Shown here piece after piece: positions 48,961 to 64,000 of a stretch of DNA of 64,000 nucleotides. The DNA comes from Oleisolibacter albus. Its GTDB lineage: Bacteria; Pseudomonadota; Alphaproteobacteria; Azospirillales; Azospirillaceae. Position 1 is the first letter of the stretch; every line of letters starts with the position of its first letter. The position numbers and the translations under genes are program-made. The stretch covers positions 124,001-188,000 of the forward strand of contig NZ_QGNJ01000003.1 in assembly GCF_003336875.1 (NCBI RefSeq), read 5' to 3'. Under the pieces are notes generated by a model. It worked only from the letters and a program-made list of their open reading frames with translations. It had not been told where the DNA came from and did not search any database.

Positions 48961-48984
48961 GGCAGATCCGGGGCTGGGCATGGG

Positions 48985-49440
48985 TCAGGGCCGCTGAGCG
49001 GGCGGCGGCCGTTTGAAGGTCAGGCGGTGGATGCTGTCACCCCGGCGGAAGATCAGGGCGTTCTGTTCGATACCGGTCAGGGTCCAATCCCCGAGATTCT
49101 GGCCCACGCGCAGGGTGCGGGCTTTGCTGCCGGGTGGACCGTCCGGGGGTTTGACCAGGGCGATATCGGCCCCCCGGCCGGTGACGATGCCGACCACGGC
49201 CAGCCCGGCCACATCGGGCGCATTGTCCGTGCTGCTGGCCGGTGGCCGGCGCAGGCGGGTGAACAGCGGGCGGGCGGCGAGATCCGGCGTGACCGGCGGG
49301 TCGGCGGCAACCGCCGGCGGCGGCGGTGCGGCGCCCGGTCCGGGGGCAGGGGCGATGTCCGGCGGCGTCAGCAGGATCTGGGCCGCCAGCAGGCCGGTCA
49401 GACCCAGTGCCAGGGCCGGCGGCAGGCGGAGACGGCGCAT
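48985..49440 (-). CDS. gspC: Type II secretion inner-membrane protein GspC
   Basis: A 151-residue bitopic protein. One membrane span is near LPPALALGLTGLLAAQILL, then a Pro/Ala-rich linker. The C-terminal homology-region domain reads LAVVGIVTGRGADIALVK, LRVGQNLGDWTLTGI and LIFRRGDSIHRLTF, the GspC HR fold that binds the secretin N0 domain. No PDZ or coiled-coil domain follows, so this is a short GspC. It is placed between gspM and gspD, with the start two bases after the gspM stop. Confidence 0.8.
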   Translation of the reverse strand: MRRLRLPPALALGLTGLLAAQILLTPPDIAPAPGPGAAPPPPAVAADPPVTPDLAARPLFTRLRRPPASSTDNAPDVAGLAVVGIVTGRGADIALVKPPDGPPGSKARTLRVGQNLGDWTLTGIEQNALIFRRGDSIHRLTFKRPPPAQRP

Positions 49441-49441
49441 G

Positions 49442-50050
49442 TCAGCGGCCCTCCATGGCTGTGGCCGGGTCGGCGGCTGGGGCGTTGGCGGAAGCAACGG
49501 GGGCAGCCAGATCCAGCCGCACCTCCACCGGCCGGCTTTGGTCCGGCGCCGTGGGCAGGGGGCTGGCGCTGATGGCCAGATCGGTCAGCACCAGATGCGG
49601 CGGCGCCTCCAGCTGGTGCAGCAGCGCCGTCAGCTGCGCCTCGGTCAGCGGCCCTTCGATGCGGGCGCGGACCCAGCCCGGCCAGCGGTCGTCGGCGTCC
49701 AGCGCCGTGACGGCGGCGGTGCCGGCGCCCTGGGCCGCAACCAGATCGCGCAGCCGAACCAGCAGCGCCTCGGCGGCCAGGGCCGGCGTGGGTGCCTGCA
49801 GGGCGAAATCGCCGGCGCTCTGCCGCTGCCGCTCGGCCGCCGCCCGCCACGATGCCAGCCCGGCCAGCAGGCGCTGGCTGCGCTCCCGTTCCCGCAGCAG
49901 CAGCTCCCGCCGTTCGGCCCGCTCCGCCATGCCCTCCAGGACCGGGTGCAGCAGCAGCGACCAGCCGGCGGCCAGGGCCAGCAGCAGCAGCCCGGCGGCG
50001 ACCAGCCGTCGTTCCCGTGCGGACAGGGGGCGCTGCGGCAGTGCGATCAT
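49442..50050 (-). CDS. gspM: Type II secretion inner-membrane protein GspM
   Basis: A 202-residue inner-membrane platform protein. A single span lies at RRLVAAGLLLLALAAGWSLL. A coiled coil follows (AERAERRELLLRERERSQRL). The C-terminal ferredoxin-like domain includes PLTEAQLTALLHQLEAPPHL. It pairs with GspL. The start overlaps the gspL stop as ATGA. Confidence 0.85.
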   Translation of the reverse strand: MIALPQRPLSARERRLVAAGLLLLALAAGWSLLLHPVLEGMAERAERRELLLRERERSQRLLAGLASWRAAAERQRQSAGDFALQAPTPALAAEALLVRLRDLVAAQGAGTAAVTALDADDRWPGWVRARIEGPLTEAQLTALLHQLEAPPHLVLTDLAISASPLPTAPDQSRPVEVRLDLAAPVASANAPAADPATAMEGR

Positions 50051-51084
50051 GGGCTGCTCTCCGGACGCAGGGTGATGTCGAAGGGACGTTTGCCCGCGGT
50101 GGCGGCCGGAGCGGCCGTGGCCGTCTGCGCCTGCTCCAGGCGGGGGGAGGCCTCGATCAGCGCCAGCACATCGATCGCCGGATCGGCTTCCCCCACCAGA
50201 TGCAGGCGGGGGCCGGCCGGGTCCCATTCCAGCCGCAGCACCCAGGCCCCGTCGGGCAGGGCGGACGCCACCGCCTCCAGCAGCGGCAGCGGGGCCGCCG
50301 CCTGCTTGTCCCGCAGCAGGGTGGCGCGGCGAGCCTCCTCCTCCTCCACCGACCGGCGCAGGCCGGCGGCGCGGGCGGCCAGATCGCGCTGTGACGCCAC
50401 CTCGGTCTCCAGCGCCGCCAGCCCGGCCATATCGCGGCCCAGCAGCAGGCCCAGATTGGCCAGCAGCAGCAGGACCACGCCCCCCCACCAGCCGTGCCGG
50501 CGCAGCTGCGCCCGCAGGCCGATGCCGACCGTCGCCGGAGCCGGCAGCCGCTGCCGCGCCCGCCCATCGGGCCCGGCAACCACGAACCCGTCCAGGCGCA
50601 CGCCGGCCGCCGCGGCCTGCCGGGCCAGATCCAGGGCCCGCGGCCGAGGCAGCACGGTGAGGGCGTAGGGGCGCTGACTGCCGCCGTCCGTTCCGGCCGG
50701 GTCCAGGCTGTACAGTGCCGCGGCGGCGGGGAAAGGGGTGTAGCGGTCCAGCTCCAGCGCCAGCAGGCGCTGCGCATCGTCCGGCGTCAGCGCCGCCGGC
50801 AGCTCCACCCGCGCTTCCAGCACCTCCTCCGCCGGCAGCACCAGCAGGGCCGAGGCGCCGTCGGACGCCGGGGCGGGGCGGCAATGGCCGTGCTGCAGCC
50901 GCCCCCACCGCACACCCTCCGGCTGCAGCCAGACGATGGCCAGTGGCCGGTGCAGTCGCCGCGCCAGGGCCGGCGGCACCAGCAGCGCCAGTTCGCGGCC
51001 CCACCAGCCGAGGCCGGTCCGCGCCGCCCGCCACAGGGGTTCCAATCCGGCCAGGGAGAGGCGGTGCAGCGGTCCGGTGGTCAT
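50047..51084 (-). CDS. gspL: Type II secretion inner-membrane protein GspL
   Basis: A 345-residue protein linking the GspE ATPase to the membrane platform. The cytoplasmic actin-like part (LLVLPAEEVLEARVELPAAL, LALELDRYTPFP) is shorter than in enterobacterial GspL. A membrane span lies near WGGVVLLLLANLGLLLG, and a periplasmic PilN-like coiled coil and ferredoxin-like domain follow (LPLLEAVASALPDGAWVLRL). It overlaps gspJ and gspM by four bases each. Confidence 0.87.
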   Translation of the reverse strand: MTTGPLHRLSLAGLEPLWRAARTGLGWWGRELALLVPPALARRLHRPLAIVWLQPEGVRWGRLQHGHCRPAPASDGASALLVLPAEEVLEARVELPAALTPDDAQRLLALELDRYTPFPAAAALYSLDPAGTDGGSQRPYALTVLPRPRALDLARQAAAAGVRLDGFVVAGPDGRARQRLPAPATVGIGLRAQLRRHGWWGGVVLLLLANLGLLLGRDMAGLAALETEVASQRDLAARAAGLRRSVEEEEARRATLLRDKQAAAPLPLLEAVASALPDGAWVLRLEWDPAGPRLHLVGEADPAIDVLALIEASPRLEQAQTATAAPAATAGKRPFDITLRPESSP

Positions 51085-51749
51085 GAGGAGGCTGCTTTCC
51101 GGCAGTCGGTGCGGTTGTACATCAGGCAGCCCACATCGGCGTCGGCACCGGGGCGGATCACCAGATCCGGCCAGCGCCGGACATCATCGGCGGCGAAGCG
51201 CAGACGGATGCGGATGGCGGCCGGCAGGGTGCTGCGGCGGCGCCATTGCTGCTGCCAGCCGGGTGGGCCGGCCGCGTCCTGGGCCGCGGACCCGAAATAG
51301 GCCAGATCCAGCGCCTGCACCCCGTCGGCCAGGGTCAGGCTGCGCTGCGGCGCCTCGCGCTGGCCGCGCCAGGCGGTGTTGACCGACGACAGGATCAGGC
51401 TGCCGTCGCGCAGGGTCAGGGTATAGAGGCGCAGCGTGCCCGGCGCCTCGTCGGGCGGCGGCGGGGCAACGAAGCTCAGCCGGGCCGGCATGCCGGTGAA
51501 GTCGACCGACCCGTCGCTGACGGCGGAGGGCGGCTGCACCGCGGCCCGTTCCAGCCGCTCGCGCAGCACCCGCTGGGCGGCGGCCATCCGGTCGACCATC
51601 TGGTCGCGCCGGTCGCCGCGCTCCCAGACGCGCTGACCCGTGTGCAGGCCCCCGGCGATGAGGCTGGCCAGCAGGCCGAGCAGGGCCAGACTGACCAGCA
51701 GCTCCATCAGGGTGAAGCCGCGTTGGCGGCGGGGATCAGGGGCGGGCAA
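51081..51749 (-). CDS. gspJ: Type II secretion minor pseudopilin GspJ
   Basis: A 222-residue pseudopilin. The cleavage site is RQRGFTLMELLVSLALLGLL with Glu at +5. The globular domain (VQALDLAYFGS, LPAAIRIRLRF) is typical of GspJ. I chose a TTG start at 51749, which gives an 11-residue leader and has GGAGCC upstream; it overlaps the gspI end by 14 bases. A longer start from an ATG at 51794 is possible. Confidence 0.87.
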   Translation of the reverse strand: MPAPDPRRQRGFTLMELLVSLALLGLLASLIAGGLHTGQRVWERGDRRDQMVDRMAAAQRVLRERLERAAVQPPSAVSDGSVDFTGMPARLSFVAPPPPDEAPGTLRLYTLTLRDGSLILSSVNTAWRGQREAPQRSLTLADGVQALDLAYFGSAAQDAAGPPGWQQQWRRRSTLPAAIRIRLRFAADDVRRWPDLVIRPGADADVGCLMYNRTDCRKAASS

Positions 51750-52128
51750 GGCGCAGGCTCCGAAGGGTGACGTCCGCGGTCCGGCCGCCGGCATGGACCG
51801 TGACCAGCAGGGCCTGGCCAAGGCCGGGCGGGCCGGGCTGGGGGGTCAGCTCCACCTGCCAGACCAGCCCGTTCTCCTGCCCGCTCCAGCGGCCCGGGCG
51901 CAGCGGGATATCGGCGCCGACGCTGGCCAGCCGCGATTGCGCCAGCATCAGCGCGTCCCGCATCTGGGCTGTGCGGCTGGCGTTCCGGCTGCCGCTGCCG
52001 ATGACCTGATAGAGCATGCCCAGCGCGGCCAGCACGATGAGGGTGGCCACCAGGGCTTCCATGACGGCGAAGCCGGCCTGGGCCGAGCGGCGGCCGCCGG
52101 GCCGGCCGGCAGGCGGATGTGGCGTCAT
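51736..52128 (-). CDS. gspI: Type II secretion minor pseudopilin GspI
   Basis: A 130-residue pseudopilin. The cleavage motif is AQAGFAVMEALVATLIVLAA with Glu at +5, after a 19-residue leader. The later stretch ALMLAQSRLASVGADIPL resembles the GspI NxMxE-type segment that follows the long helix. It overlaps gspH and gspJ. Confidence 0.87.
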   Translation of the reverse strand: MTPHPPAGRPGGRRSAQAGFAVMEALVATLIVLAALGMLYQVIGSGSRNASRTAQMRDALMLAQSRLASVGADIPLRPGRWSGQENGLVWQVELTPQPGPPGLGQALLVTVHAGGRTADVTLRSLRLARP

Positions 52129-52562
52129 GGCCGCCCCCCGGCGGCAGGCAGCCGCTCCAGGCTGATAGTGCCGGCGACCGGGCCGATCTCCAGGGCGATG
52201 CGGCGGCGGGTACCGGTCAGCAGCAGGCGGGCGCCGGCGGTCTGCCCGTCGGCGCCGAAGCGGATCTCCGCCGGTCCGTCCAGCCGCAGCCCGGCCGGCA
52301 GCCGTACCGTTCCGGCGGGACTGCGATAGCCCTGTCCGTCGGACAGGAGCGACAGCGCCACGACCTCACCCCGGCGCAGGGCCATGGCCCGGGCGCGCGC
52401 CAGATCCAGGGCCAGCTGGCGGGCGCTGCCGCCCAGCTCCAGCGCCTGCACGGCCAGCTCCAGCCGCGGCGCGGCGATGGCGCCGATCAGGGCGGCGACG
52501 GCCAGCGTCACCAGCATCTCCATCAGCGTGAAGCCGGCCTGGGCGCTGCGGGGGGGCATCAC
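52125..52562 (-). CDS. gspH: Type II secretion minor pseudopilin GspH
   Basis: A 145-residue pseudopilin with cleavage motif AQAGFTLMEMLVTLAVAALI after a ten-residue leader. The segment GGSARQLALDLARARAMALR is the classic GspH helix after the stalk. The remaining beta domain includes IRFGADGQTAGARLLLTG. It overlaps gspG and gspI by four bases each. Confidence 0.88.
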   Translation of the reverse strand: MMPPRSAQAGFTLMEMLVTLAVAALIGAIAAPRLELAVQALELGGSARQLALDLARARAMALRRGEVVALSLLSDGQGYRSPAGTVRLPAGLRLDGPAEIRFGADGQTAGARLLLTGTRRRIALEIGPVAGTISLERLPAAGGRP

Positions 52563-53068
52563 CAGGTCCCGATATCCTGGTTTTCGCCGCTGCCGCCCTC
52601 GGCCCGATCGGCGCCCAGGGTGAACACCTCCAGTTCGGCCCGCTTGCCGGGATAGTGATAGCCGTAGGGGACGCCCCAGGGGTCGGTCAGCCCCTCGGCC
52701 TTGCGCAGATAGGGGCCGTTCCAGCCGACGACGCCGGGCGGCGGTTCGACCAGGGCCTTAAGCCCCTCCTTCTCGCTGGGATAGCGGCCCACATCCAGCC
52801 GGTAGAGATCGAGGCTGGAGACGATGTTCTGGATCTGCACCCGCGCCGTCTGCGCACGGGAGGAGCCGAGATATTTCAGCACCTGCGGGCCGACGACGGC
52901 GGCCAGCAGGCCCAGGATCGCCAGAACCACCAGCAGTTCCAGCAGGGTGAAGCCGGCCTCGCGGCCGGACCGGCGGGGGCCTGACCCGGGGCCGGACGCG
53001 CGGGTGTCGGGGGGCGTCGCGGGACGGACGGGGGCCGGACGGGCGGGGGAGGGGAGGAGGATTTTCAT
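52559..53068 (-). CDS. gspG: Type II secretion major pseudopilin GspG
   Basis: A 169-residue pseudopilin that forms the bulk of the pseudopilus. The mature part is a textbook GspG: GFTLLELLVVLAILGLLAAV, LDLYRLDVGRYPSEKEGL and DPWGVPYGYHYPG with the calcium-site loop. The leader is 39 residues, Pro/Arg/Gly-rich, and has no internal start codon that would shorten it. Most GspG leaders are about 6-10 residues. The start overlaps the gspF stop as ATGA. Confidence 0.93.
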   Translation of the reverse strand: MKILLPSPARPAPVRPATPPDTRASGPGSGPRRSGREAGFTLLELLVVLAILGLLAAVVGPQVLKYLGSSRAQTARVQIQNIVSSLDLYRLDVGRYPSEKEGLKALVEPPPGVVGWNGPYLRKAEGLTDPWGVPYGYHYPGKRAELEVFTLGADRAEGGSGENQDIGTW

Positions 53069-54339
53069 CGCAGGGCCAGATCGTTGAGTCCAAGGATGGC
53101 GGACAGGATGGCGGCGATGATCCCGGCCACGATCAGGCCCAGGATCACGGTGATGGCGGGCGTCAGCACCGACATCAGCCGCTGCGTCGCCGTGCGCAGG
53201 TCGCGGTCCAGCACATCGGCCAGCCGGGTCAGCATCAGCGGCAGCTGGGCTGTCTCCTCGCCGGTGCGCAGGAAATTCAGGGCGATGGGCGGAAAGCAGC
53301 CGGTGGCGGCCAGGGGACCGGACAGGCCGCCCCCCTCGCGCAGGCCGGCGGCCACCTGCTCCACCGCGGCACCCATATGGCTGTTGCCCAGGGCCTTGCG
53401 GGCGATGGCCAGCGCCACCGGCAGATGCACCCCCGCCTCCACCAGCCCGGCCAGGGTGCGGGCGAAGCGGGCCGTTTCCGCCGTGGACAGCAGCGGCCCC
53501 AGCAGCGGCAGGCGCAGCACCTGCCGGTCCAGCGCTGCCCGGACCGCGGGACGCTTCAGCCAGCGCGCCAGTCCCAGCCCCAGCAGCGCCAGCAGGGCCA
53601 GGGCGGTCAGCCCGTGCTGGCGCAGGGCGGTGCTGGCGCCCAGCACCAGGGCCGTGGCCGGCGGCAGCTCCCCCTTCATGTCGGCGAACAGCGTCTCGAA
53701 CTGCGGCACCACCAGCCCCAGCATGACGCCGATGGCGCCCATCGCCACCAGGGCCAGCATGGCCGGATAGATCAGGGCCGAGATCAGGGTCTGGCGCAGG
53801 GCGGCGGCGCGTTCCAGCAGCTCGGCCAGCCGCGACAGGCCGGCATCCAGCCGCCCGCTCATCTCCCCCGCCTCGGCCATGGCGCAGGAAACGGGGGGAA
53901 ACAGGCCGGGCAGGCCGGCCATGGCGCGCGACAGCGGCTCCCCGGCCTTGACCTGGGCGCGCAGCCCGGCGAAGGCGGCGCGCAGTCCGGGATGCGGGGC
54001 CGTTTCCGCCACCACGGCCAGCGCCCGCTCCAGCGGCAGGCCGGCGCCCAGCAGCACGGCCAGTTCGCCCAGACTGTCGGGCAGGCGGGCGCGGGCGCGG
54101 CGATCCACGGCCAGCCCGTCCGGTGTTGCCGCCGCGGCGATCTCGTGGGCCTCGATGGGCAGCAGCCCGTCGGCCCGCAACCGGTGCAGCGCGGCGCTCT
54201 GGTCCGCCCCCTCCACCGTGCCCTGCCGCACCTCGCCGGTGCCGGGCAGCACGGCCCGGTAGCGGAAGCGCTTCAGGGTCCGGCCGGGGGCCGGGTGGCC
54301 GGGGGACAGGCCGGTGGTCTCAGGCGTCCTGGGTGACAC
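53065..54339 (-). CDS. gspF: Type II secretion inner-membrane protein GspF
   Basis: A 424-residue polytopic platform protein. Two repeated halves follow the GspF/PilC pattern (LAVLLGAGLPLERALAVVAE, then FARTLAGLVEAGVHLPVALA). Each is followed by membrane spans, for example LALVAMGAIGVMLGLVVPQF, and the protein ends with ITVILGLIVAGIIAAILSAI. The GTG start at 54339 is supported by GGAGGAGG seven bases upstream and overlaps the gspE end by 20 bases. The next gene, gspG, overlaps its stop. Confidence 0.9.
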   Translation of the reverse strand: MSPRTPETTGLSPGHPAPGRTLKRFRYRAVLPGTGEVRQGTVEGADQSAALHRLRADGLLPIEAHEIAAAATPDGLAVDRRARARLPDSLGELAVLLGAGLPLERALAVVAETAPHPGLRAAFAGLRAQVKAGEPLSRAMAGLPGLFPPVSCAMAEAGEMSGRLDAGLSRLAELLERAAALRQTLISALIYPAMLALVAMGAIGVMLGLVVPQFETLFADMKGELPPATALVLGASTALRQHGLTALALLALLGLGLARWLKRPAVRAALDRQVLRLPLLGPLLSTAETARFARTLAGLVEAGVHLPVALAIARKALGNSHMGAAVEQVAAGLREGGGLSGPLAATGCFPPIALNFLRTGEETAQLPLMLTRLADVLDRDLRTATQRLMSVLTPAITVILGLIVAGIIAAILSAILGLNDLALR

Positions 54340-56077
54340 GCAGCACCTCCTCCAGCGTCGTCTCCCCGGCCATGGCCTTGGCCAGGCCGTCGGCCAGCAT
54401 GGCGCGCATGCCCGCCTGCTGGGCGGCGCGGCGGATGTCGCGGGCCTCGGCCCGGGCCAGCACCAGCCGGGCCACGGCCTCGTCCATGGGCAGCAGCTCC
54501 AGCACGGCCAGCCGGCCGCGGAAGCCCTCGCCATGGCAGGCGGGACAGCCCGCGGGCTGCCAGAAGCGGGCGCCGGCCGGCTGGGTCAGGCCGGGCGGCA
54601 GGGGCGGGACCCACCCGGCGGGGGCGGGCTGGCGGCAGTGGGGGCAGAGGCGGCGCACCAGCCGCTGCGCCAGCGCGGCGTTGACGGTGGAGGCGATGAG
54701 GAACGGCTCCACCCCCATGTCCAGCAGGCGGGTGAAGGCGCTGGCGGCGTCGTTGGTGTGCAGGGTGGACAGGATGGCGTGGCCGGTCAGCGCCGCCTGT
54801 ACCGCCACCTGGGCCGTTTCCAGGTCGCGGATCTCCCCCACCATGATGACGTCCGGGTCCTGGCGCAGGAAGGAGCGCAGGGTGGCGGCGAAATCCAGGC
54901 CGATCTGCTGTTTGACCTGGATCTGGTTCACCCCCTCCAGCCGGTATTCCACCGGGTCCTCGACGGTGAGGATCTTGCGGTCGGGCGTGTTCAGCACGGC
55001 CAGCGAGGCATAGAGCGTGGTGGTCTTGCCGCTGCCGGTGGGACCGGTCACCAGGGTGATGCCGTGCGGCCGGTCCAGGATGCCGCGATAGAGCGGCAGC
55101 AGGTCCGGCCCGAAGCCCAGCGTCTCCAGCTCCAGCGCCAGGCCGGACCGGTCGAGGATGCGCAGCACCACCGATTCGCCATGGATGGTGGGGGCGGTGG
55201 CCACGCGGAAATCGATGTCGTGCCCGCGCACGGCCAGCCGCAGCCGCCCATCCTGGGGCAGGCGCCGTTCGGCCACGTCCAGCCCGGCCATGACCTTGAT
55301 GCGCGACACCAGCGGGCCGCGCAGCCCGGCCGGAAATCCCTCGATCTCGCGCAGGGCGCCGTCGACCCGCAGCCGCACCCGCAGCCGGTCCTCGGTGGGT
55401 TCGATATGGATGTCGGAGGCGCGGGCCTCCGCGGCGCGGGCGATCAGCGCATTGACGGCGCGCACCACCGGCGCATCGCTGCTGAGATCGCGCAGCCGTT
55501 CCAGATCGGCATCGTCGGCGCTGGCGTCATCGGCGGGGGCGGGGCCGGCCTCGCCGCCATACAGCCGGTCGATGGCGGCGTCCAGGTCGCCCAGCCGCGC
55601 CACCCGCAGCGCCACCGGCCGGCCGAAGGCGAAGGACAGGGCGCGGGCCGGATAGGGATCGGTGGGATCGGCCACCGCCAGCTCCAGCACCGCGCCGGGC
55701 TGGCCCAGGGGCAGTGCCCGCACCCTGCGCAGGAAGCGCGGGCCGGCGCGGTCGGTCCCGTGCGCCGCCTGCGGCCAGTCGCCGGGCCGCATCAGCGGCA
55801 GGCCGCAGGCCGCCGCCAGCGCTTCCGCCAACGCCTGTTCGCTGACCAGACCCAGCCGGGTCAGCACCGCATCCAGCCGGTCGCCGGTCTGGTCCCGCAC
55901 CAGCCGGGCGCGGGCCAGACCATCGGGGCTGACCAGCGCCCGCTCCAGCAGGATGCGGTCCAGGTCGCCGCCAGCCGGCAGCGGCGCCACAGCGGCATGG
56001 GCGGCCGGGCCGGAATCCAGGGTCGGGTCCGGGGCAGAATCCAGGGCCGGCCGTGGCAGCGTCCGCGGGTCCGTCAC
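54320..56077 (-). CDS. gspE: Type II secretion ATPase GspE
   Basis: A 585-residue secretion ATPase of the hexameric type. The N-terminal GspE-N domain (LLERALVSPDGLARARLVRD) binds GspL. The ATPase core has Walker A GPTGSGKTTT, the Asp box ILTVEDPVEYRLEG, Walker B DPDVIMVGEIRD and the His box ILSTLHTNDA. A zinc site is formed by CPHC and CPAC pairs near residues 475-515. The GTG start at 56077 begins the operon. The order gspE-F-G-H-I-J-L-M-C-D-K differs from the classical C-to-O order. Confidence 0.94.
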   Translation of the reverse strand: MTDPRTLPRPALDSAPDPTLDSGPAAHAAVAPLPAGGDLDRILLERALVSPDGLARARLVRDQTGDRLDAVLTRLGLVSEQALAEALAAACGLPLMRPGDWPQAAHGTDRAGPRFLRRVRALPLGQPGAVLELAVADPTDPYPARALSFAFGRPVALRVARLGDLDAAIDRLYGGEAGPAPADDASADDADLERLRDLSSDAPVVRAVNALIARAAEARASDIHIEPTEDRLRVRLRVDGALREIEGFPAGLRGPLVSRIKVMAGLDVAERRLPQDGRLRLAVRGHDIDFRVATAPTIHGESVVLRILDRSGLALELETLGFGPDLLPLYRGILDRPHGITLVTGPTGSGKTTTLYASLAVLNTPDRKILTVEDPVEYRLEGVNQIQVKQQIGLDFAATLRSFLRQDPDVIMVGEIRDLETAQVAVQAALTGHAILSTLHTNDAASAFTRLLDMGVEPFLIASTVNAALAQRLVRRLCPHCRQPAPAGWVPPLPPGLTQPAGARFWQPAGCPACHGEGFRGRLAVLELLPMDEAVARLVLARAEARDIRRAAQQAGMRAMLADGLAKAMAGETTLEEVLRVTQDA

Positions 56078-56125
56078 ACCAGCACACTCCCCTTCCGCAC
56101 CCCGCCGCTCCGGCAGGGCCGCTCT

Positions 56126-56141
56126 GACTACATAAGTAGTC
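56126..56141. promoter_or_regulatory. Dyad upstream of gspE
   Basis: GACTAC, four bases, GTAGTC: a perfect 6-4-6 dyad about 49 bases before the gspE start. It could be a repressor or activator site for the secretion operon. No regulator gene is adjacent, so the binding protein is unknown. Confidence 0.35.
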
Positions 56142-56216
56142 GCTCGAAAAGTTCATGTATATGACGTCTTTGTGGACTCGCGGTCAAATGACAATATGAT
56201 TTCGGGCGGCATGAAA

Positions 56217-56237
56217 CAATATTCGTAACATATATTG
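56217..56237. promoter_or_regulatory. CAATAT-N9-ATATTG dyad in the gsp/PstS intergenic region
   Basis: A 21-base dyad lies between the divergent genes. It includes a T-N11-A spacing, as in LysR-type sites, but no LysR gene is next to it. It may overlap a promoter. Confidence 0.3.
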
Positions 56238-56588
56238 CGTTTTTATGATCGGGCCGGCGACATCGCCTCAAAGATGTGGTGTGGGGTGGGTGCTGAGGCT
56301 GTCGCCACCCATAAGGACATACCCAATATGGCGATGATGTCGGAAATCCGCGCAACTCCACGGCATTTTAAGCATGCGACATCAATCTTTCACGATACGA
56401 TCATTTTACCAATGCAACCCCACGGATATATGGTCTGCCGGCCCGATGCGTCATTCCGGTGTGGGGGGTGCGACGGCAAGGGTTCCTGTTCTACACGGGT
56501 CATTGCCGTGAACACTGTTCCTGTGCCGGATAACCATCCGGGCAGACCATCGAATATTGCCTATAGACCGACAATCAGGGAGTGATCG

Positions 56589-58082
56589 ATGACGCGCATT
56601 CACAGCCTTCTGCTGGCCGCCACCGCTCTGGCCGGCGCCGGCTTCGCCCAGACCGCGGCGGCCGAGGACGCCTATCTGGCCGGCGGCGCCAGCCTGCCCA
56701 ACGCCTATTACACCCAGGCGATGAACTGCTACGGCAACACCGACCAGACGCTGCATGTCAACAACAACACCGACCAGGTCATCGCCAACTACAGCGGCTG
56801 CCCTGGCACCGTGAACAGCGGCGTGTCGCTGGGCTATGTCTCCACCGGCTCGGGCCGCGGCATCGAGGGCTACATCGCCAATGATGCGGCCCGTTATCTC
56901 TATACCGACAAGGACAGCTCCGCGGCCGGCTTCCAGGTGCGGGCGGCGGATAGCAGCCTGCTGACCCTGAACAGCACCATGCCGCTGTTCAGCGGCTCCG
57001 ACGCGGCGCTGACCACGGCCCAGCTGGCGGCCCTGGCCTCCGCCGGTGCCACCGACAATGTCCAGGGCACGGTTGACATCCGCGCCGACGGCGTGGCCGA
57101 CGATCCCAGCAATGCCAACGACTACAAGAACTTCGTCGCCAACTATGGCGCCGTGATCCAGGTGCCGGCGCTGTATGCCGCCGTCGCCGTGGCCTTCGAC
57201 CCGACCTACCGCGATGAAAATGGCGTCGAGCAGAGCCTGGGCCGCGTGACCCTGAGCCAGAGCGATGTCTGCGGCATCTTCACCGGCAGCATCACCACCC
57301 TGAACGGCCTGGCCATCCAGCTGGTCGGCCGCTCGGACGGGTCCGGCACCACCGAGCTGTTCACCCGCTTCCTGGCCTCGGCCTGCGGTGGCGTGTTCAG
57401 CAATCCGGAAGGGACCCAGACCCTGCCGAACAGCGGCATCTACACCACCCTGGCCAATGGCAATGACGGCGTGGCCGCCGCCCTGAACTACAGCACCGCC
57501 ACCCCGGCCAACACCATCCGCATCGGCTATCTCAGCAACGATTACCTGTCCGATGCCGTCAATGGCCTGAACCATGCCCGTCCGGGCAGCGCCTGGGCCG
57601 GCTATGGCATCACCGCCGCCCGCATCATCAACGCCAATAACGGCACCGCCTACGATCCGAATGTGGCCGGCATCACGGCGGCTTCCCTTGCCGTGGGCTT
57701 CACTCCTCCGACCGGTGCTGATGCCGCCGATCCGGCCAAGTGGGCGCCGCTGGCGGCCAACTCGGCCATCGAGAACCCCACCGCCGGCTATCCCATCATC
57801 GGCACCAGCAATCATCTGGTCTACAGCTGCTACAGCACGGAGGCCCGGCGTCTGGCCGTGGCCGGCACCAATGCCAGCGGCGCCACCCCCGGCTATCTCT
57901 ACTGGTACTACAACACGCCCTCTGTGGTGACGCCGCTGCTGGGGCAGGCCGGCTTTGTTGCCCTTCCGACCGCGCTGCGGAACGCCATCACCAGCACCTT
58001 CTTCAACAGCAGCTCCAGCCTGGCGATCGGCTCCAAGGAAGCCGGCACCTGCGCGTCCGGCGTGACGGGCACCGGCGCCTGA
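56589..58082 (+). CDS. Secreted PstS/DING-like substrate-binding protein
   Basis: A 497-residue exported protein. The signal peptide is [20 protein letters not shown], and the mature start DAYLAGGASLPNAYY resembles the GGGATLP start of PstS/DING phosphate-binding proteins. The family's ligand-site stretch is GRSDGSGTTELFTRFL. Six cysteines (in MNCYG, SGCPG, DVCGIF, SACGG, YSCYS and GTCAS) could form three disulfides, which suits an extracellular protein. GGGAG precedes the ATG. It stands head to head with gspE, and DING/PstS-type proteins are known type II substrates in pseudomonads, so it may be a substrate here. Phosphate binding is inferred. Confidence 0.75.
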   Translation: MTRIHSLLLAATALAGAGFAQTAAAEDAYLAGGASLPNAYYTQAMNCYGNTDQTLHVNNNTDQVIANYSGCPGTVNSGVSLGYVSTGSGRGIEGYIANDAARYLYTDKDSSAAGFQVRAADSSLLTLNSTMPLFSGSDAALTTAQLAALASAGATDNVQGTVDIRADGVADDPSNANDYKNFVANYGAVIQVPALYAAVAVAFDPTYRDENGVEQSLGRVTLSQSDVCGIFTGSITTLNGLAIQLVGRSDGSGTTELFTRFLASACGGVFSNPEGTQTLPNSGIYTTLANGNDGVAAALNYSTATPANTIRIGYLSNDYLSDAVNGLNHARPGSAWAGYGITAARIINANNGTAYDPNVAGITAASLAVGFTPPTGADAADPAKWAPLAANSAIENPTAGYPIIGTSNHLVYSCYSTEARRLAVAGTNASGATPGYLYWYYNTPSVVTPLLGQAGFVALPTALRNAITSTFFNSSSSLAIGSKEAGTCASGVTGTGA

Positions 58083-58110
58083 TCCAGGCAGACAAAGGCC
58101 CATGACTTCG

Positions 58111-58141
58111 ACCCCCGCCCGCCAGGCGGGGGTCTTTTGTC
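58111..58141 (+). terminator. Rho-independent terminator after PstS-like gene
   Basis: ACCCCCGCC pairs with GGCGGGGGT around a five-base loop, followed by CTTTTGTCC. It lies 28 bases after the stop codon and separates this gene from the lasso cluster. Confidence 0.85.
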
Positions 58142-58147
58142 CTGCCG

Positions 58148-58165
58148 ATCATTAAGATATATGAT
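58148..58165. promoter_or_regulatory. AT-rich dyad upstream of lasso precursor
   Basis: ATCAT-N8-ATGAT lies in an AT-rich stretch about 100 bases before the precursor start. The only -10-like sequence seen is TATAAC at 58242-58247, with no convincing -35. Promoter assignment is therefore weak. Confidence 0.3.
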
Positions 58166-58266
58166 TGTATTGTGAAGATCGATCAGTGATTTAGACAGAC
58201 ATACGGCTGTCGGGTAAAAAGCGTGTAAGTCCAATCAGGACTATAACGCAGAGCAAGAGGATGATG

Positions 58267-58383
58267 ATGGTGACGGAAAAGCTGGAATGGCAGACGCCGG
58301 AGATGGTGGAACTGCCCGTGAACGCGGCGGAATCCGGATTTACTGAACCCACCCTGGCCGACACGGATACCTACAACAGTTGA
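58267..58383 (+). CDS. Lasso peptide precursor (A), predicted 15-residue core
   Basis: A peptide of 38 residues (40 if the first of three tandem ATGs at 58261 is used). The third ATG is six bases from AAGAGG, so I prefer it. The leader carries WQTPEMVEL, matching the aromatic-x-x-P motif read by RRE proteins. The likely core is GFTEPTLADTDTYNS: Gly1 and Asp9 could close a nine-residue macrolactam, leaving a six-residue tail ending in Ser, as in phosphorylated paeninodin-type lasso peptides. The residue at -2 is Glu rather than the usual Thr, so the cleavage site is uncertain. Kinase, RRE, peptidase and cyclase genes follow on the same strand. Confidence 0.75.
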   Translation: MVTEKLEWQTPEMVELPVNAAESGFTEPTLADTDTYNS

Positions 58384-58422
58384 TCTTGCCGGCGCCGGAT
58401 CGCATCGGCCGGCTCTGAACGA

Positions 58423-58455
58423 CCCTCCCGTCCCCGGACGGGAGGGTTTGTTTTT
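58423..58455 (+). terminator. Terminator or attenuator between lasso precursor and processing genes
   Basis: CCCTCCCGTCC pairs with GGACGGGAGGG over eleven bases, with a two-base spacer, followed by TTTGTTTTTC. It lies 39 bases after the precursor stop. In many RiPP clusters such a hairpin lets the precursor be made in excess over the enzymes. Confidence 0.88.
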
Positions 58456-59014
58456 CGGGGCCGAATCGCCTGCGCTCCGTCTGGGGGCGGTGGCCCGTAC
58501 CCCGGCGTCGTGCTCGCGCAGCCGGGCACCCGGGGAGGCGCGGTCTGTGTCCCCCACTGTCCGCTCCGCCTGTGCGGGGGAAGACAGAAGGGGACGACCG
58601 GTCCTGTGGTCTCAACACCGCCGGCGGTCCGACGGCCGGCGGTGAAAGCTGGCATGGCCGCACCTCGATCCGGCAGCGCAGGCATAGGCAGGGCCGAGCG
58701 TAGAGGCCAGCCGTAAATGCGCAGATCGTATACGGCTCACCCCACGCAGTCCCTTGTTTCCGATGCCGGTTCTGCCAAGAAAATGTCCAGTAATGCGGTG
58801 GCAGATATTGAGGAAATGATTATTAATAATTGTGAAATTTGAATGACGATAAAACTGATGTTGAAAATCACATAGGCCATACGCATAAAGATGTCGCCCC
58901 TTCGATAAGATTGTTCCCGTCTGCATGGGGGTATCACGATCGCTGACAGCATGACGGTTGGAACAGTCCGGGGAATCGGGAAGCGTTGCCGCGGAAGGCC
59001 GAGGAAGTGGATCC
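58456..59014. other. Gap between lasso precursor terminator and kinase gene
   Basis: About 560 bases with no convincing gene. The part at 58780-58900 is clearly AT-rich compared with the neighbours. Two weak candidates exist: a 41-codon plus-strand frame at 58717-58842 (starts MRRSYTAHPTQ, ends MIINNCEI), and a minus-strand frame ending at 58737 whose ATG near 58886 would give a 49-residue hydrophobic peptide (MRMAYVIFNISF, then IVIQISQLLIIISSIS). Neither has a good ribosome site. The region probably contains a promoter for the processing genes. Confidence 0.4.
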
Positions 59015-59971
59015 ATGAGCATCTGGTATTATCAGGGGCTGGACCGGCCGATCGCCTGCCCGTTCCCCCTGCCGGAACTGGCGCCGGATGCCGGGGGTGC
59101 AGGGAAGGCCGCCATCCGCATCACCCTGGCCGGGGCAGCGGACCCCGACCGGCCGGGCGGTCCCGTCTTCTCCGACGGGGAGATCGCCCTGCATCCGCCG
59201 CCCTGCAGCCTGGTGATCCGTGGGGGCGAGACCCTGGAAATCCGGCCCACGGCGCCGGACGACCCGGCTGGAATCCGCACCTTCCTGCTGGGGTCCGGGC
59301 TGGGGGCGCTGGCGCATCAGCGCGGCCTGCTGCCGCTGCATGCCAGTGCCGTGGCGCTGGGGCCGGATGCGGGTGTCGTTGCCTTTTCCGGCCCGTCCGG
59401 CCATGGCAAGTCCACCCTGGCCGCCCATCTGGCGGCGCAGGGGCACGGGCTGATGACCGATGATCTCTGTATCCTGCGCCTGGACGCGGACCGGGCCCTG
59501 GCCTTTCCCGGCGTCCGCCGGCTGAAGCTGTGGCGCGATGCCCTGACCGCGCTGGGCCATGATGCCGACCGGCTGCCGCCGGTGCAGCACCAGCTGGACA
59601 AGCGGGCGCTGCCGCCGCCGCCACAGGCCGCGGCCCGGCCGGCGCCGCTGCGGGCGCTGTACATCCTCGACCGGGGGGAGGTGCCGGGCATCGCCCCGAT
59701 ATCCGGCCTGTCCGCTTTGGAGGCGGTATGGGCCAATATCTTCCGGCGGCATTATGCGCTGCGCAGCGGGCAAGGCGCGGCCCTGCGTCTGGCCTGCGCC
59801 CGTCTGGCCGCCCAGGTCCCCGTGTTCCGCCTGACCCGGCCCTGGGATCTGGGGCGCATGCAGGACAGTGTCGATCTGCTGCTCGCGCATCACCGGACCC
59901 TGGCCGCAGCCCGGCCCGACGCACCCGGCATTTCTACGGTTTCCCATGGTGACGAGCATGCACAGAACTGA
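59015..59971 (+). CDS. HPr-kinase-like lasso peptide kinase
   Basis: A 318-residue protein related to HPr kinase/phosphorylase as found in lasso clusters. The P-loop GPSGHGKST lies at about residues 126-134, after LLPLHASAVAL with a conserved His near 109. MTDDLCIL near 147-154 gives the Walker-B-like acidic pair. In paeninodin-type clusters this kinase phosphorylates the C-terminal Ser of the precursor, and the precursor here ends in Ser. The ATG at 59015 has GGAAG upstream; an in-frame TTG at 58958 lacks support. The end overlaps the next gene by 14 bases. Confidence 0.85.
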   Translation: MSIWYYQGLDRPIACPFPLPELAPDAGGAGKAAIRITLAGAADPDRPGGPVFSDGEIALHPPPCSLVIRGGETLEIRPTAPDDPAGIRTFLLGSGLGALAHQRGLLPLHASAVALGPDAGVVAFSGPSGHGKSTLAAHLAAQGHGLMTDDLCILRLDADRALAFPGVRRLKLWRDALTALGHDADRLPPVQHQLDKRALPPPPQAAARPAPLRALYILDRGEVPGIAPISGLSALEAVWANIFRRHYALRSGQGAALRLACARLAAQVPVFRLTRPWDLGRMQDSVDLLLAHHRTLAAARPDAPGISTVSHGDEHAQN

Positions 59972-60323
59972 CGTGACGACCGCGACCACCCCTGCGACCA
60001 CCCTTGCCGCCGTCTCTGCCTCCCCCGATCCGGGCAGTCTCGGCCTGGACAGTGTGATCCGCCGCAATCCCGACATCCTGGCCACCAAGATCGGGGCGGA
60101 GGTGATGATGCTGGATGTGTCGGCCGGCACCTGCTTCGGGTTGAACCCGGTCGGCACCCGCATCTGGGACGGGATCGAGACAGCCACACGGGTGCGCGAC
60201 CTGTGCGAGGATCTGCTGGCTCGGTTCCGTGTCACACCGGAGGTCTGCCAGGCCGAGGTGTTGACCCTGCTGCGCCGCATGCAGGCCAAGGGGCTGGTTC
60301 TGATCGATGCGCCGCAGGACTAG
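59958..60323 (+). CDS. PqqD-type RiPP recognition protein (lasso B1)
   Basis: A 121-residue PqqD-like RRE protein that binds the precursor leader and delivers it to the peptidase. After a Thr/Ala-rich start of about 35 residues, the domain reads GAEVMMLDVSAGTCFGLNPV, then GTRIWDGIE and a three-helix end (AEVLTLLRRMQAKGLVLI). The ATG at 59958 overlaps the kinase gene by 14 bases; an ATG at 59946 is four codons earlier. It should act in the cytoplasm with the B2 peptidase, which it overlaps by 17 bases. Confidence 0.9.
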   Translation: MHRTDVTTATTPATTLAAVSASPDPGSLGLDSVIRRNPDILATKIGAEVMMLDVSAGTCFGLNPVGTRIWDGIETATRVRDLCEDLLARFRVTPEVCQAEVLTLLRRMQAKGLVLIDAPQD

Positions 60324-60765
60324 GTGGCGGCGGCCGCCGGCCGATTACGGCCTGCTGGCGGAAGCGGTTCTCTGTCTCGCCGTCGCACGGCTGGCGCTGC
60401 TGCTGCTGCCCTTCCGCACCCTGGCCCGCCTGATGGTCCGGGCCGGCGGTGACCGGGAAAGCGGGCTGCAAGCGCCGGAGCGGGTGCGGCGCGTCGGCTG
60501 GGCCGTGCGCACGGCCGCCCGGCGCGGGCCGGTGCCCGCCGTCTGTTTCCCCCAGGGACTGGCGGCGCAGATGATGCTGGCCCGCCGCCGGGTCGGCAGC
60601 CGGCTTTACTATGGGCTGAAACAGGCGGACGGAGCGCTGAAGGCCCATGTCTGGGTCCGCGCCGCCGGCTGCGATGTGGTGGGCGGGCGCGAGGCGCCCG
60701 GCTTCGCCGTGGTGGCGACCTTTCCGCCGATGCCGGCGGAGCAACAGCAGGACGTGGCGGAATGA
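60307..60765 (+). CDS. Lasso peptide leader peptidase, transglutaminase-like (B2)
   Basis: A 152-residue member of the transglutaminase-like protease family used in lasso maturation. Cys80 in VPAVCFPQGLAAQMML and His114 in LKAHVWV form the expected Cys-His pair, with Asp123 in GCDVV as a likely third residue. The N-terminal helices (LLAEAVLCLAVARLALLLLP) are typical of this family and might touch the membrane. It removes the leader bound by the PqqD protein. The start overlaps the B1 gene and the stop overlaps the cyclase gene as ATGA. Confidence 0.9.
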   Translation: MRRRTRWRRPPADYGLLAEAVLCLAVARLALLLLPFRTLARLMVRAGGDRESGLQAPERVRRVGWAVRTAARRGPVPAVCFPQGLAAQMMLARRRVGSRLYYGLKQADGALKAHVWVRAAGCDVVGGREAPGFAVVATFPPMPAEQQQDVAE

Positions 60766-62735
60766 GCGCGATCGGCGGTTTCTGGCCCGGCAGGGATCGG
60801 CCCGACCTGCTGGCGGTGGTGGAACGCATGGGCGGCGGCCTGTCGGCCTATGGTCCGGACCGCAAGGGCCAATGGCGGGGCGACGGGATCGCCCTGGTCT
60901 GGCGCCAGCTGTCCGTGCTGCCCGAGGATCTCTATGACCGGCAGCCGCTGGTGTCCGCCGATGGCCGCCACGTGCTGGTGGCCGATGCCCGCATCGACAA
61001 TGGCGCCGAACTGGCTGACGAACTGGGCTGGCCGCCGGAATCGGCGCAGCCGCGGGTGGAATCGCGGCTGATCCTGGACGCCTATCGCCGCTGGGGCGTG
61101 GGCTGCGTGGCCCGGCTGCTGGGGGATTTCGCCTTCGCCCTGTGGGACACGCAGGAACGGCGGTTGCTGCTGGCGCGCGATGCCACCGGCACCCGGCCGC
61201 TGTTCTGGGCCCGCTGTGGCGACGGCATCGCCTTCGCCAGCATGCCGCGGGGCCTGTTCGCCGTGCCCGAGATCTCCCGCACCATCGATGACAGCCAACT
61301 GGCCGCCTATCTGGCGCTGCTGATGCTGGAGGGGCCGGACACGCTGTATCGCGACATCAAGCGGGTTCCCAACGGCCATCTGCTGCTGGCCGACGCCGAC
61401 GGGGTGCGGCTGCATCGCTATTGGAACCCCGACCGCGGCCGGGAGTTGCATCTGCCGCGGCAGCAGGATTATGCCGAGGCGCTGCGGGCGGAGATGACCC
61501 GCGCCGTGCGCTGCCGGCTGCGCAGCAGCGGTCCGGTGGCCAGCATGCTCAGCGCCGGCCTCGACAGCAGCTCGGTGACTTCCATCGCCGCCTCGTTGCT
61601 GGGGACGGCTGGCAAACGGCTGCTGGCGCTGACCGCGGTGCCGCGGTCCGGCTTCCCGGCCTCGGCCGGTGCCGGTCGGGTGGTGGACGAATCCACCCTG
61701 GCGGCCCGGGTGGCGGCGCTCCACCCCAACATCGACCATATGCTGGTCCCCTCGGGCACGCGCTCGCACCTGCAGACCGTGGATCTGTTCCTTCAGCATA
61801 CGGATCTGCCGGTGCTGAACCCCTGCAACGCCGTCTGGACCAGCCGGTTGGCGCAGCAGGCGCGTCAGGGGGGCGCGCGGGTCCTGCTGAGTGGTGCCGG
61901 CGGCAATTTCGGCGTCAGCTATGAGGGCGAGAAGTATCTGCCCCAGCTGTTCATCCGGGGCCGCTGGCTTGAGCTGGCCCGGCTGCTGGCCGGCATGCAC
62001 CGGGACAACCGGGCGGCCCTGCGCGGCCTGTGGCTGGCGCTGGCGCCGCATCTGCCGCCGGGCCTGCACCGGCAGCTACGTCGGCTGGCCGGGCGGCATG
62101 CCATCGGGAGTACCAGCCAGTTCAGTATGCTGGTACCGGAGTTCGCGGCGGCGTCCGGCCTGGAGCGCCTGTATGACCAGAAGGGTTACCGCCGCTTCAG
62201 CGATCCGCCGCCAGCCGATGGCTGGACTGTGCGGAAACAGTGCTTTCAGCGCATTGATCCCGGCCCCTATGTCGCTGCCGACGCCGCGCTGGCAGGGATC
62301 GACCGCCGCAACCCGCTGCTTGACCGGCAGCTGCTGGAATTCTGCCTGTCGGTGCCGGAGCGCCACTATATCGATGGCGGCCGCCGCGCTGCCCTGCTGC
62401 GCGATGCCATGGCGGGATTGCTGCCGCCGGCCCTGCTGCGCCGGCGCTGCCGAGGCCTGCAGGCTGCCGACTGGTACGAGGGGGTCGTCGCCGCCCGCGA
62501 CGAACTGGCCGAGGAGGTGCAGCGCCAGGCCCGGTCCGGTCTGGCCGGCCGTGCCCTGGATGTCGCCCGGATGCAGGATCTGGTGGACAGCCTGCCCGCT
62601 GCCGACACGCCGACGGCCGACTTGGCGGCCATGGGCTGGAACCAGTCGGTACTGAACGATCAATACCGGGCGGCCCTGCTGCGCGGCATTGGCGTCGGAC
62701 GCTTCCTGCGCCGGGTGGAGGGCGGCAACGCCTGA
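60762..62735 (+). CDS. Lasso cyclase, asparagine-synthetase-like (C)
   Basis: A 657-residue asparagine-synthetase homologue. The N-terminal half keeps the class II glutaminase fold (LLGDFAFALWDTQERRLLLA, then ARDATGTRPLFW) but begins MSAIGGFW, without the Cys2 needed to release ammonia. That is normal for lasso cyclases. The synthetase half has the PPi-loop SAGLDSSS starting at Ser264 and later GAGGNFGVSYEGEKY. It adenylates an Asp or Glu side chain of the core and joins it to the new N-terminus. It completes the set A-K-B1-B2-C. No exporter gene follows. Confidence 0.92.
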   Translation: MSAIGGFWPGRDRPDLLAVVERMGGGLSAYGPDRKGQWRGDGIALVWRQLSVLPEDLYDRQPLVSADGRHVLVADARIDNGAELADELGWPPESAQPRVESRLILDAYRRWGVGCVARLLGDFAFALWDTQERRLLLARDATGTRPLFWARCGDGIAFASMPRGLFAVPEISRTIDDSQLAAYLALLMLEGPDTLYRDIKRVPNGHLLLADADGVRLHRYWNPDRGRELHLPRQQDYAEALRAEMTRAVRCRLRSSGPVASMLSAGLDSSSVTSIAASLLGTAGKRLLALTAVPRSGFPASAGAGRVVDESTLAARVAALHPNIDHMLVPSGTRSHLQTVDLFLQHTDLPVLNPCNAVWTSRLAQQARQGGARVLLSGAGGNFGVSYEGEKYLPQLFIRGRWLELARLLAGMHRDNRAALRGLWLALAPHLPPGLHRQLRRLAGRHAIGSTSQFSMLVPEFAAASGLERLYDQKGYRRFSDPPPADGWTVRKQCFQRIDPGPYVAADAALAGIDRRNPLLDRQLLEFCLSVPERHYIDGGRRAALLRDAMAGLLPPALLRRRCRGLQAADWYEGVVAARDELAEEVQRQARSGLAGRALDVARMQDLVDSLPAADTPTADLAAMGWNQSVLNDQYRAALLRGIGVGRFLRRVEGGNA

Positions 62736-62845
62736 CCCGGCGCCCCTTCCGGTTCAGCCTGGCACGGCTGCCGGCCCGTCAAGCCATTCCCCTGATCCCC
62801 CGCCCGCGCTCGGCCCATGCCATGCCCGGTGCCCGGCAGCAGCCC

Positions 62846-62876
62846 GGGGCGCACCCGGCTCCCCCGGGTGCGCCCC
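62846..62876. terminator. Strong hairpin between convergent cyclase and FHA genes
   Basis: GGGGCGCACCCGG and CCGGGTGCGCCCC form a perfect 13-base stem with a five-base loop. It lies between the lasso cyclase end and the end of the haemagglutinin gene on the other strand. No T-run follows, but placement suggests a two-way terminator. Confidence 0.7.
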
Positions 62877-62882
62877 GCCGGC

Positions 62883-64000
62883 TCATTGCAGGGTGCTGTC
62901 CTTGTCGTCCTTCGGGTCGTCCACCAGTTCCAGCAGCAATTCAGTGCGGGTGGTGGGGCGGTCGCGGCTGGTCAGCTCCTTCACCGCCGCATCCACTGCC
63001 GCCGTGGCGCCCAGGGACTGGACCTGGACACTGTTGCTGATGCCACCCTGGGCGACCATCCCGAAGCTCGGGCCGGAGACATCGAAGTTGGCGGCGTTGG
63101 CCACTGCCGCGGCGGCGATGGACAGGGTGCCGCGCACCCGCACGCCGGCATCGCCGGCATCCACCGTACCGCGCGGGGCCAGCAGGGCCACCGAGGGCAC
63201 CTGATCATCCTCCGTGTCCGGATCGAAGGCACCGATGCCGGCGCCGCTGGTGCCGGCTTGGGCATCCACCAGATAGACCGGGCCGGGCTGGGTGGTGATG
63301 GTCACCGGCGGATAGTTGGCGCTGGTCTTGGGTCCCTGGCCGGCATTGAGGTCGCCATTGGAGGACCAGAGGATGATGTTGTCGCCGGCCTGGGTGAACA
63401 GGCGCGACTGGTTCAGCACCAGACTGCCGTCGGTGAAGCTGTAGATGCTGCCACCGCGCAGGCTGAGGATCCCCTCGAGGCCGGAGGGGATGGAGATGAT
63501 GGTGCTGGTGTAGACCGTATTCTGTCCGGGAATGCCGGAGATGAAATCGTCCGTCCGCGGCCGGCCCAGCAGCAGGTTGGTCAGCGCACTGTTGCGGCGC
63601 TGGATCTGCTGATCGGTGCGCACGGTGGAGCCGGCCAGGATTCGGCCGCCAGGGCCGAGGATGCGGATATCGCCGCCCCAGCCGGTCTGGATCGTGGCCA
63701 GGCGCAGATCGAGATCACCGGTGGATTTCGTCTCGCCCACGGCCCCCAGCCCGCCGCTCAGGCCGTTCTGGGTGTAGCCCAGGCTGGCCGGGAACAGCAG
63801 GTTCACGGCGGTATAGCCACGGGAATATTGCAGGTAGGAATTGCCCTTGGGATCGGCCGCCGCTCCCAGCTCGTTGAAATAGACCTTGTCGATCAGGAAG
63901 CGGCGCTGCGTCAGCACATCCAGGCTGGTGAAGGCCTCATAGGCCTGCTGGAAGCTGGGGCTCTGGCCGGCGGCCACGCCCTTGGCCGCCAGTGCCTCGG
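62883..64000 (-). CDS. Filamentous haemagglutinin family protein, C-terminal part (DUF3739)
   Basis: The frame is open to the right edge, so only the last 371 residues are seen. It contains GGSIYSFTDGSLVLNQSRLF and DNIILWSSNGDLNAGQGPKT, the DUF3739 pattern found at the end of very large TpsA/FhaB-like proteins. LLAPRGTVDAGDAGVRVRGT follows, a repeat-like beta-helix segment. The tail is polar and acidic (ELVDDPKDDKDS). Such proteins are usually secreted by a TpsB partner and act as adhesins. The N-terminal secretion domain and any partner gene lie outside the window. Confidence 0.85.
   Translation of the reverse strand, partial: EALAAKGVAAGQSPSFQQAYEAFTSLDVLTQRRFLIDKVYFNELGAAADPKGNSYLQYSRGYTAVNLLFPASLGYTQNGLSGGLGAVGETKSTGDLDLRLATIQTGWGGDIRILGPGGRILAGSTVRTDQQIQRRNSALTNLLLGRPRTDDFISGIPGQNTVYTSTIISIPSGLEGILSLRGGSIYSFTDGSLVLNQSRLFTQAGDNIILWSSNGDLNAGQGPKTSANYPPVTITTQPGPVYLVDAQAGTSGAGIGAFDPDTEDDQVPSVALLAPRGTVDAGDAGVRVRGTLSIAAAAVANAANFDVSGPSFGMVAQGGISNSVQVQSLGATAAVDAAVKELTSRDRPTTRTELLLELVDDPKDDKDSTLQ

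Follow-up and report, generated by a model that had tools for sequence, protein, structure and literature searches.

Kinase-tailored lasso peptides are known from paeninodin of Paenibacillus, from ThcoK, from SyanK of Sphingobium and from pseudomycoidin (PMC9266682, PMC8498205). In a 64,000-nucleotide stretch of the Oleisolibacter albus genome (contig NZ_QGNJ01000003.1; hereafter the window), five genes at 58261-62735 of the forward strand very probably form a kinase-tailored lasso peptide cluster with a core ending in YNS, and the cluster is a new member of the known phosphorylated lasso peptides of the paeninodin and SyanK kind. With paeninodin, SyanK and ThcoK it shares an HprK-like kinase with a His-Lys-Asp-Asp set, split B1 and B2 proteins, an AsnB-like cyclase C and a precursor with a C-terminal Ser (PMC9266682, PMC8498205). 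It differs from them in that the precursor gene A lies apart from K-B1-B2-C, no exporter gene is near, the leader has no Thr(-2) and the precursor is matched neither by the NCBI paeninodin precursor model NF033524 nor by any family at E up to 1; the precursor of one relative, L122, scores 23.2 bits on NF033524 (cut-off 27). The term 'paeninodin-type', used in a first-pass annotation of the sequence, holds for the kinase step but not for the precursor model or the exporter. The paeninodin genes are reportedly ordered A-C-K-B1-B2-D. The Bsf cluster of Bradymonas sediminis also bears a kinase and a leader without Thr(-2), but it has Ile(-2), a phosphate on Ser3, a C-terminal Asp, a nucleotidyltransferase and an ABC transporter (PMC10368454). 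We found no title on clusters like the present one in the open-access literature on lasso peptides and azospirilla.

For comparison, 82 genomes of the family were surveyed, 37 of them with a kinase match. We used 40 stretches from the family, 15 around class-level cyclase matches and one more of the host genome, together with 78 further loci taken from a set of named records that includes many metagenome-assembled genomes (MAGs). Kinase loci of at least 150 bits numbered 96; this count takes in the window and has one contig twice.

All five genes were found where the first-pass annotation had placed them, with intact frames. B1 (59946..60323), described there as a PqqD-type recognition element for ribosomally synthesized and post-translationally modified peptides (RiPPs), matches PqqD PF05402 with 62.7 bits (cut-off 23.4) as well as the solved lasso B1 proteins 9x90 (E 8e-9) and TbiB1 5v1u (E 2e-7). 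The leader peptidase B2 (60307..60765) matches lasso_biosyn_B2 NF033537 (74.6 bits, cut-off 33) and Transglut_core3 (62.9, cut-off 26), and was unmatched among solved structures by sequence. Of its supposed Cys-His-Asp triad, Cys80 and His114 (residue numbers count from the ATG at 60307) are present in all 56 of 56 homologues, but the Asp (D123) is not conserved. The cyclase C (60762..62735) matches Asn_synthase (109.5 bits, cut-off 21) and GATase_7 (88.6, cut-off 25) and has the motif SAGLDSS (S264, G266, D268, S269). The protein begins MSAIGG, with Ser in place of Cys2, and it is thus a cyclase without Cys2, as had been claimed.

The kinase K (59015..59971, 318 aa, with a possible alternative TTG start upstream at 58958) is only weakly seen by sequence, with 32 bits on HprK_rel_A (cut-off 200) and 18.7 on PF07475 (cut-off 33.3), and it is not an HPr(Ser) kinase/phosphatase proper by TIGR00679 (16.5 bits, cut-off 240). 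Its AlphaFold model has a predicted local distance difference test (pLDDT) value of 91. In a Foldseek search the model matched PEPCK and HprK structures at a probability of 1.00, the top PEPCK having an E of 7.5e-8 and the top HprK/P one of 7.4e-7; the fold match is partial, with TM-scores of 0.33-0.52 by query and 0.56-0.65 by HprK chains, at root-mean-square deviations of 5-9. H109, K132, D149 and D150 do not vary across the 35 kinases aligned from the fetched loci, window included. We take them to be the His-Lys-Asp-Asp motif of lasso kinases (PMC9266682), an equivalence that is our own reading against the motif name in that article. The P-loop with K132, the four putative catalytic residues and the predicted HprK/PEPCK-like fold agree with the annotation of the gene as HPr-kinase-like.

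Gene A (58261..58383) encodes a precursor of 40 aa, composed of the leader MMMVTEKLEWQTPEMVELPVNAAE and, directly after the preferred cut, SGFTEPTLADTDTYNS; the rival cut lies one residue later. The proposed aromatic-x-x-P leader is present as WQTPEM at 58288, in the form aromatic-x-x-P-x-hydrophobic, and the precursor ends in Ser. Under precursor criteria that were fixed after precursors had been seen and that included the final Ser, a single frame qualified in the 64 kb, which was the reported precursor adjoining the operon; 60 random first-order sequences of equal length gave a mean of 0.37 and a maximum of 2. The final Ser is also kept among relatives. It ends 53 of the 57 distinct precursor candidates whose neighboring kinase scores at least 240 bits, window included, in a search that did not require Ser, and 13 of 16 whose kinase scores 150-240 bits. 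The set of 57 leaves out L062 (same contig as L120), L145 (a copy of L144), duplicates, rows more than 2,500 bases away from K or C, rows that overlap known genes and rows with more than three of R/H/C/W. It keeps leaders with Thr at W+13 to W+15, counted from the leader Trp (W), or with Ala or Ser at W+13, and the precursors of L065, L072, L079 and L135 are outside it. The family matches of B1, B2 and C, the catalytic set of K and the conserved Ser ends uphold the lasso class and the phosphorylated tail that had been proposed, and we consider a phosphorylated YNS tail the likely end of the product.

Several observations weigh against this assignment. B1 stays under the cut-off of the NCBI lasso model lasso_PqqD_Bac NF033536 (54.5 bits, cut-off 80), and the best NCBIfam match of C, lass_lactam_cya NF033535, gives 346.7 bits where 525 is the cut-off. 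A C-terminal Ser also occurs in 11 of 19 candidates for which the kinase is weaker or unseen, although the kinases of those rows may lie past the fetched stretch; the Ser alone is therefore a weak sign. The gap between A and K amounts to 631 bases. As for export, PF00664 was unmatched within 100 kb on the contig, the nearest match being 100 kb off. Many lasso clusters, though not all, carry an exporter D (PMC10368454). Of the 96 kinase loci, 36 hold an ABC transporter family whose representative matches PF00005 and not PF00664; PF00005 was therefore run on the host genome as well. The sole PF00005 ATPase within 100 kb is at 32304-33098, 25 kb upstream of the cluster; it is a separate short gene beside permease-like and binding-protein-like frames, and we read it as an importer component.

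In the pathway that we propose, B1 would bind the W-x-x-P leader and the HprK-like kinase would phosphorylate the C-terminal Ser on the linear precursor. B2 would then cleave between Glu(-1) of the Ala(-2)-Glu(-1) pair and Ser, or at the next peptide bond, and C would activate the Asp side chain and link it to the new N-terminus, yielding a lasso whose YNS tail is phosphorylated.

The position of the cut decides the ring size. An acid falls within core positions 7-9 or not according to the register, since the Asp would be D9 in a core starting at Gly (58336) and D10 in one starting at Ser. In the register from W, the window reads A13-E14-S15-G16...D24. Most relatives have Thr at W+13 or W+14, and a second leader type, found in 19 rows, lacks Thr at W+13 and has Ala (18 rows) or Ser (one row) in its place. 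At W+14, 12 of these Ala-type rows have Glu and 4 have Gln, and single rows have Met, Ala or Asn; because W+14 varies, W+13 is the fixed site. Exceptions with Ile, Val or Ala at -2 are attributed to Kretsch et al. 2023 in PMC10368454. The window leader fits the Ala type, with A13-E14 its commonest form and a predicted cut between Glu and Ser, and its B2 groups, at moderate support, with Ala-type B2 proteins. We therefore tentatively favor, from these sequence comparisons, the 16-aa product SGFTEPTLADTDTYNS (S1 to S16, 58333..58380) with an S1-D10 ring, the putative acceptor codon being 58360-58362. Its calculated [M+H]+ is 1700.7286, or 1780.6949 when phosphorylated.

This preference has points against it as well. 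Thr is absent from W+12 to W+15 of the window leader. No row of the Ala type predicts a ten-residue ring: in the 19 rows the acceptor, counted from W+15, is at 8 (15 rows), 9 (3) or 11 (1, L134), and never at 10. Known lasso rings have 7-9 residues (PMC10368454, PMC8498205), and we found no precedent for ten in the articles consulted. Across 56 precursors, window excluded, the rule-based rings were 8 (38), 9 (10), 10 (4), 7 (2), 11 (1) and 12 (1), where the 11 of L134 and the 12 of one L071 row probably come from a wrong register or frame. The first ring residue of metanodin is Asn (PMC12670498), and several rule-based precursors also predict Asn there.

Within the same class, a credible competing product, to which we give a little under an even chance and about the same likelihood as the favored one, is GFTEPTLADTDTYNS, a G1-D9 ring made by a cut after Glu(-2)-Ser(-1), in which Glu would fill the place of Thr(-2). 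Its calculated [M+H]+ is 1613.6966, or 1693.6629 with phosphate. Such a ring sits in the known range of 7-9 (PMC10368454, PMC8498205). Rings of 8 or 9 make up 48 of the 56 rule-based cases, and 10 is absent from the Ala-type rows. Moreover, the precursor of L122, the nearest in the cyclase clade (AEWQTP, T14, A16, D24), shares the W+16/W+24 spacing with G16 and D24 of the window. Set against this are the clustering of the window B2 with Ala-type B2 proteins and the frequency of A13-E14 in that type. A further objection, that we know of no other Glu(-2) leader, is weak, given that our set kept only Thr, Ala or Ser leaders and that the cuts of relatives are themselves predicted. The 15-residue core of the first-pass annotation is thus one of two close readings and is not secured: A13-E14 and the B2 relatives favor 16 residues, and the known ring range favors 15.

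Aside from the window, L110 and L111 have related precursors, identical at 29 of 34 residues, in which W+13 (-2) is Ala and Thr, respectively, in the contexts VQQAANNGLVAPGDG and VQQTNNNGLVAPGDG. They form a natural test pair for B2 specificity.

The cyclase and the peptidase of the window have different nearest relatives. The closest cyclases, 45-48% identical, are those of L117/L123 and L119 (Ancylobacter), L118 (Asticcacaulis MAG), L120 (Niveispirillum MAG), L122 (Novispirillum itersonii) and L129 (Rhizobiales MAG), and the best relative found anywhere has 47-48% identity. A plasmid search gave four records (E up to 1e-60), the best at 38% and none closer; a scan of viral contigs for close relatives gave none; and among 398 genomes of the phylum one other genome was found at E up to 1e-100, with 38%. 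In a quick tree the window C lies inside this clade with an SH-aLRT support of 99. The clusters of the clade resemble that of the window in their cyclases and C-terminal Ser, but have Thr(-2) leaders and acceptors at 8, 9 or 10, and L118, L120 and L122 also carry tail-collar genes, unlike the window cluster. By rule, the rings are 8 in L117/L123, 9 in L122 and 10 in L118, L119, L120 and L129. The last four precursors have Thr14, no acid at 7-9 and a reachable acid at core position 10. Three of them are near copies and the L118 cyclase is close, so that they amount to little more than one case, although the L118 precursor differs from the others in the first half of the core. The cyclase branches of these four are 0.01-0.06 long in Asticcacaulis, Ancylobacter, Niveispirillum and a Rhizobiales MAG, which suggests that their clusters spread recently across orders.

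For B2 the nearest rows are L108 (51%), L077 (46%), L130 (46%), L101 (46%) and L135 (43%), and four of these five (L108, L077, L130, L135) are Ala-type loci; the precursor of L101 was not recognized and it was counted for neither leader type. In a B2 tree of the 34 rows with an assigned leader type (the label of L077 being our own reading and that of L135 depending on a second W-x-x-P in its frame), the leader label changed 3 times, compared with 7.3 when shuffled, and none of 500 shuffles was as low. The group of the window with L108, L077, L130 and L135 is supported at 85/81, which is moderate, and the next wider group includes the Thr-type L065; both facts count against the favored core. 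The nearest K and B1 rows are also Ala-type (37.6% vs 37.0%, and 43.5% vs 40%), but these margins are too small to carry weight. L108 (G432), L077 (G025) and L130 (Magnetospirillum MAG) resemble the window in B2 (45-51% identical), an A13-[E/Q]14 leader and the C-terminal Ser, but they differ in having the acceptor at 8 or 9 instead of 10, cyclases in another clade and genes outside one operon. It is conceivable, though we hold it with less assurance than the ring itself, that the cluster is a mosaic, in which an Ala-type peptidase with its cut site, Ala(-2)-Glu(-1) before Ser1, would work with a cyclase from a clade drifting between 8, 9 and 10 to form the ten-residue S1-D10 ring.

It is improbable that the kinase targets another residue, a Ser or Thr in the ring or loop, instead of the C-terminal Ser. 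BsfK of Bradymonas, a lasso kinase, does phosphorylate the ring residue Ser3, but BsfA ends in Asp and has no C-terminal Ser to use (PMC10368454). A core starting at Ser would offer a hydroxyl at position 1 and several Thr follow, but the C-terminal Ser is kept in the great majority (53/57) of the kinase-linked precursors.

The cluster is flanked upstream (46828-58082) by type II secretion genes, with GspE-type and secretin matches, and a PstS-like gene, and downstream (62883-64000, continuing into L069) by a gene for a DUF3739 adhesin of 4256 aa, followed by Porin_5 and ExbB-like/LamG genes. That the cluster is decaying, or that its product is an unthreaded macrolactam or another RiPP, is very unlikely. 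No exporter is near, the leader is unusual, and neither the PstS-like protein nor the DUF3739 fragment has a counterpart at E up to 0.001 in the ten further genomes of the genus, but the five frames of the cluster are intact, four of them overlap and the catalytic residues of K, B2 and C are conserved.

With the chosen starts, the overlaps are 26 bases between K and B1, 17 between B1 and B2, and 4 between B2 and C. Directly after A is a terminator-like hairpin of 12 pairs with a T-run (58421..58448), found by a terminator scan and by folding; 6 such sites occurred in the 4.9 kb scanned, with 1.5 expected, and the 96 bases around the hairpin have a fold z of -3.3. Because this strong hairpin lies directly 3' of A, the precursor probably has its own short transcript, judging from the sequence. 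A weak sigma-70-like match (58137..58165, 9/12, consensus only) is upstream of A, one of 2 found with 0.4 expected. No second precursor frame in the A-K gap fits the motif, and three Rfam matches there, all far under their gathering scores, were treated as chance.

In the host genome (4.69 Mb; window and L063-L068) the lasso-kinase loci number six. They come with eight precursor candidates, of which seven have Thr(-2), whereas B2 (PF13471) is matched only four times in the genome, including an orphan at C41:32912. Within the fetched stretches, L066, L067 and L068 had no B2 and L067 also had no cyclase, which suggests that the lasso loci of this genome share enzymes in trans.

At other loci, lasso kinases adjoin genes for phage tail collars (PF07484), frequently in tandem groups of two or three. 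Among the 48 best kinase matches (E up to 1.1e-9) in the 82 family genomes, at least 29 had a collar gene within 10 kb, compared with 0.26 expected under uniform placement, the collars being those among the matches listed. Within the same matches, 24 of 36 tandem collar groups were near a kinase, compared with 2 of 59 single collars. Overall, 29 of the 96 kinase loci have collars: L066 (own genome, C40:13485-14843), L044, L047, L050, L052, L054, L056, L057, L058, L060, L061, L062, L072, L075, L076, L077, L078, L080, L082, L108, L114, L118, L120, L121, L122, L125, L130, L134 and L179. The window cluster has no collar gene. Other recurrent neighbors in the 96 loci, their families named from one representative apiece, are NTP_transf_5 (25), sulfotransferase (24), GNAT (14), JmjC_2 (12) and 2OG-Fe oxygenase (11), and collar genes adjoin the GNAT gene in 13 of the 14 GNAT loci. 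At 50001-64000 of the window, none of these five families or the ABC transporter family was found. Two recurrent unannotated families (19 and 12 loci) had representatives without a match in Pfam, NCBIfam or PHROG, and from their place and strand we take them to be antisense frames of the collar and sulfotransferase genes. We did not find an association of lasso peptides with tail collars in the open-access literature. This association is a first genomic lead to the function of the sister clusters.

If the ring of the window peptide has ten residues, prediction programs built around an acceptor at positions 7-9 after Thr(-2) would miss or mis-cut these clusters, and the limit that threading sets on ring size would be directly testable. 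The mosaic reading, if true, would imply a ring beyond the known 7-9, with the peptides of L118, L119, L120 and L129 as further cases. Should the ring have nine residues instead, the leader would still indicate a peptidase that works without Thr(-2), and leaders of this kind recur among the kinase-bearing lasso clusters of Alphaproteobacteria.

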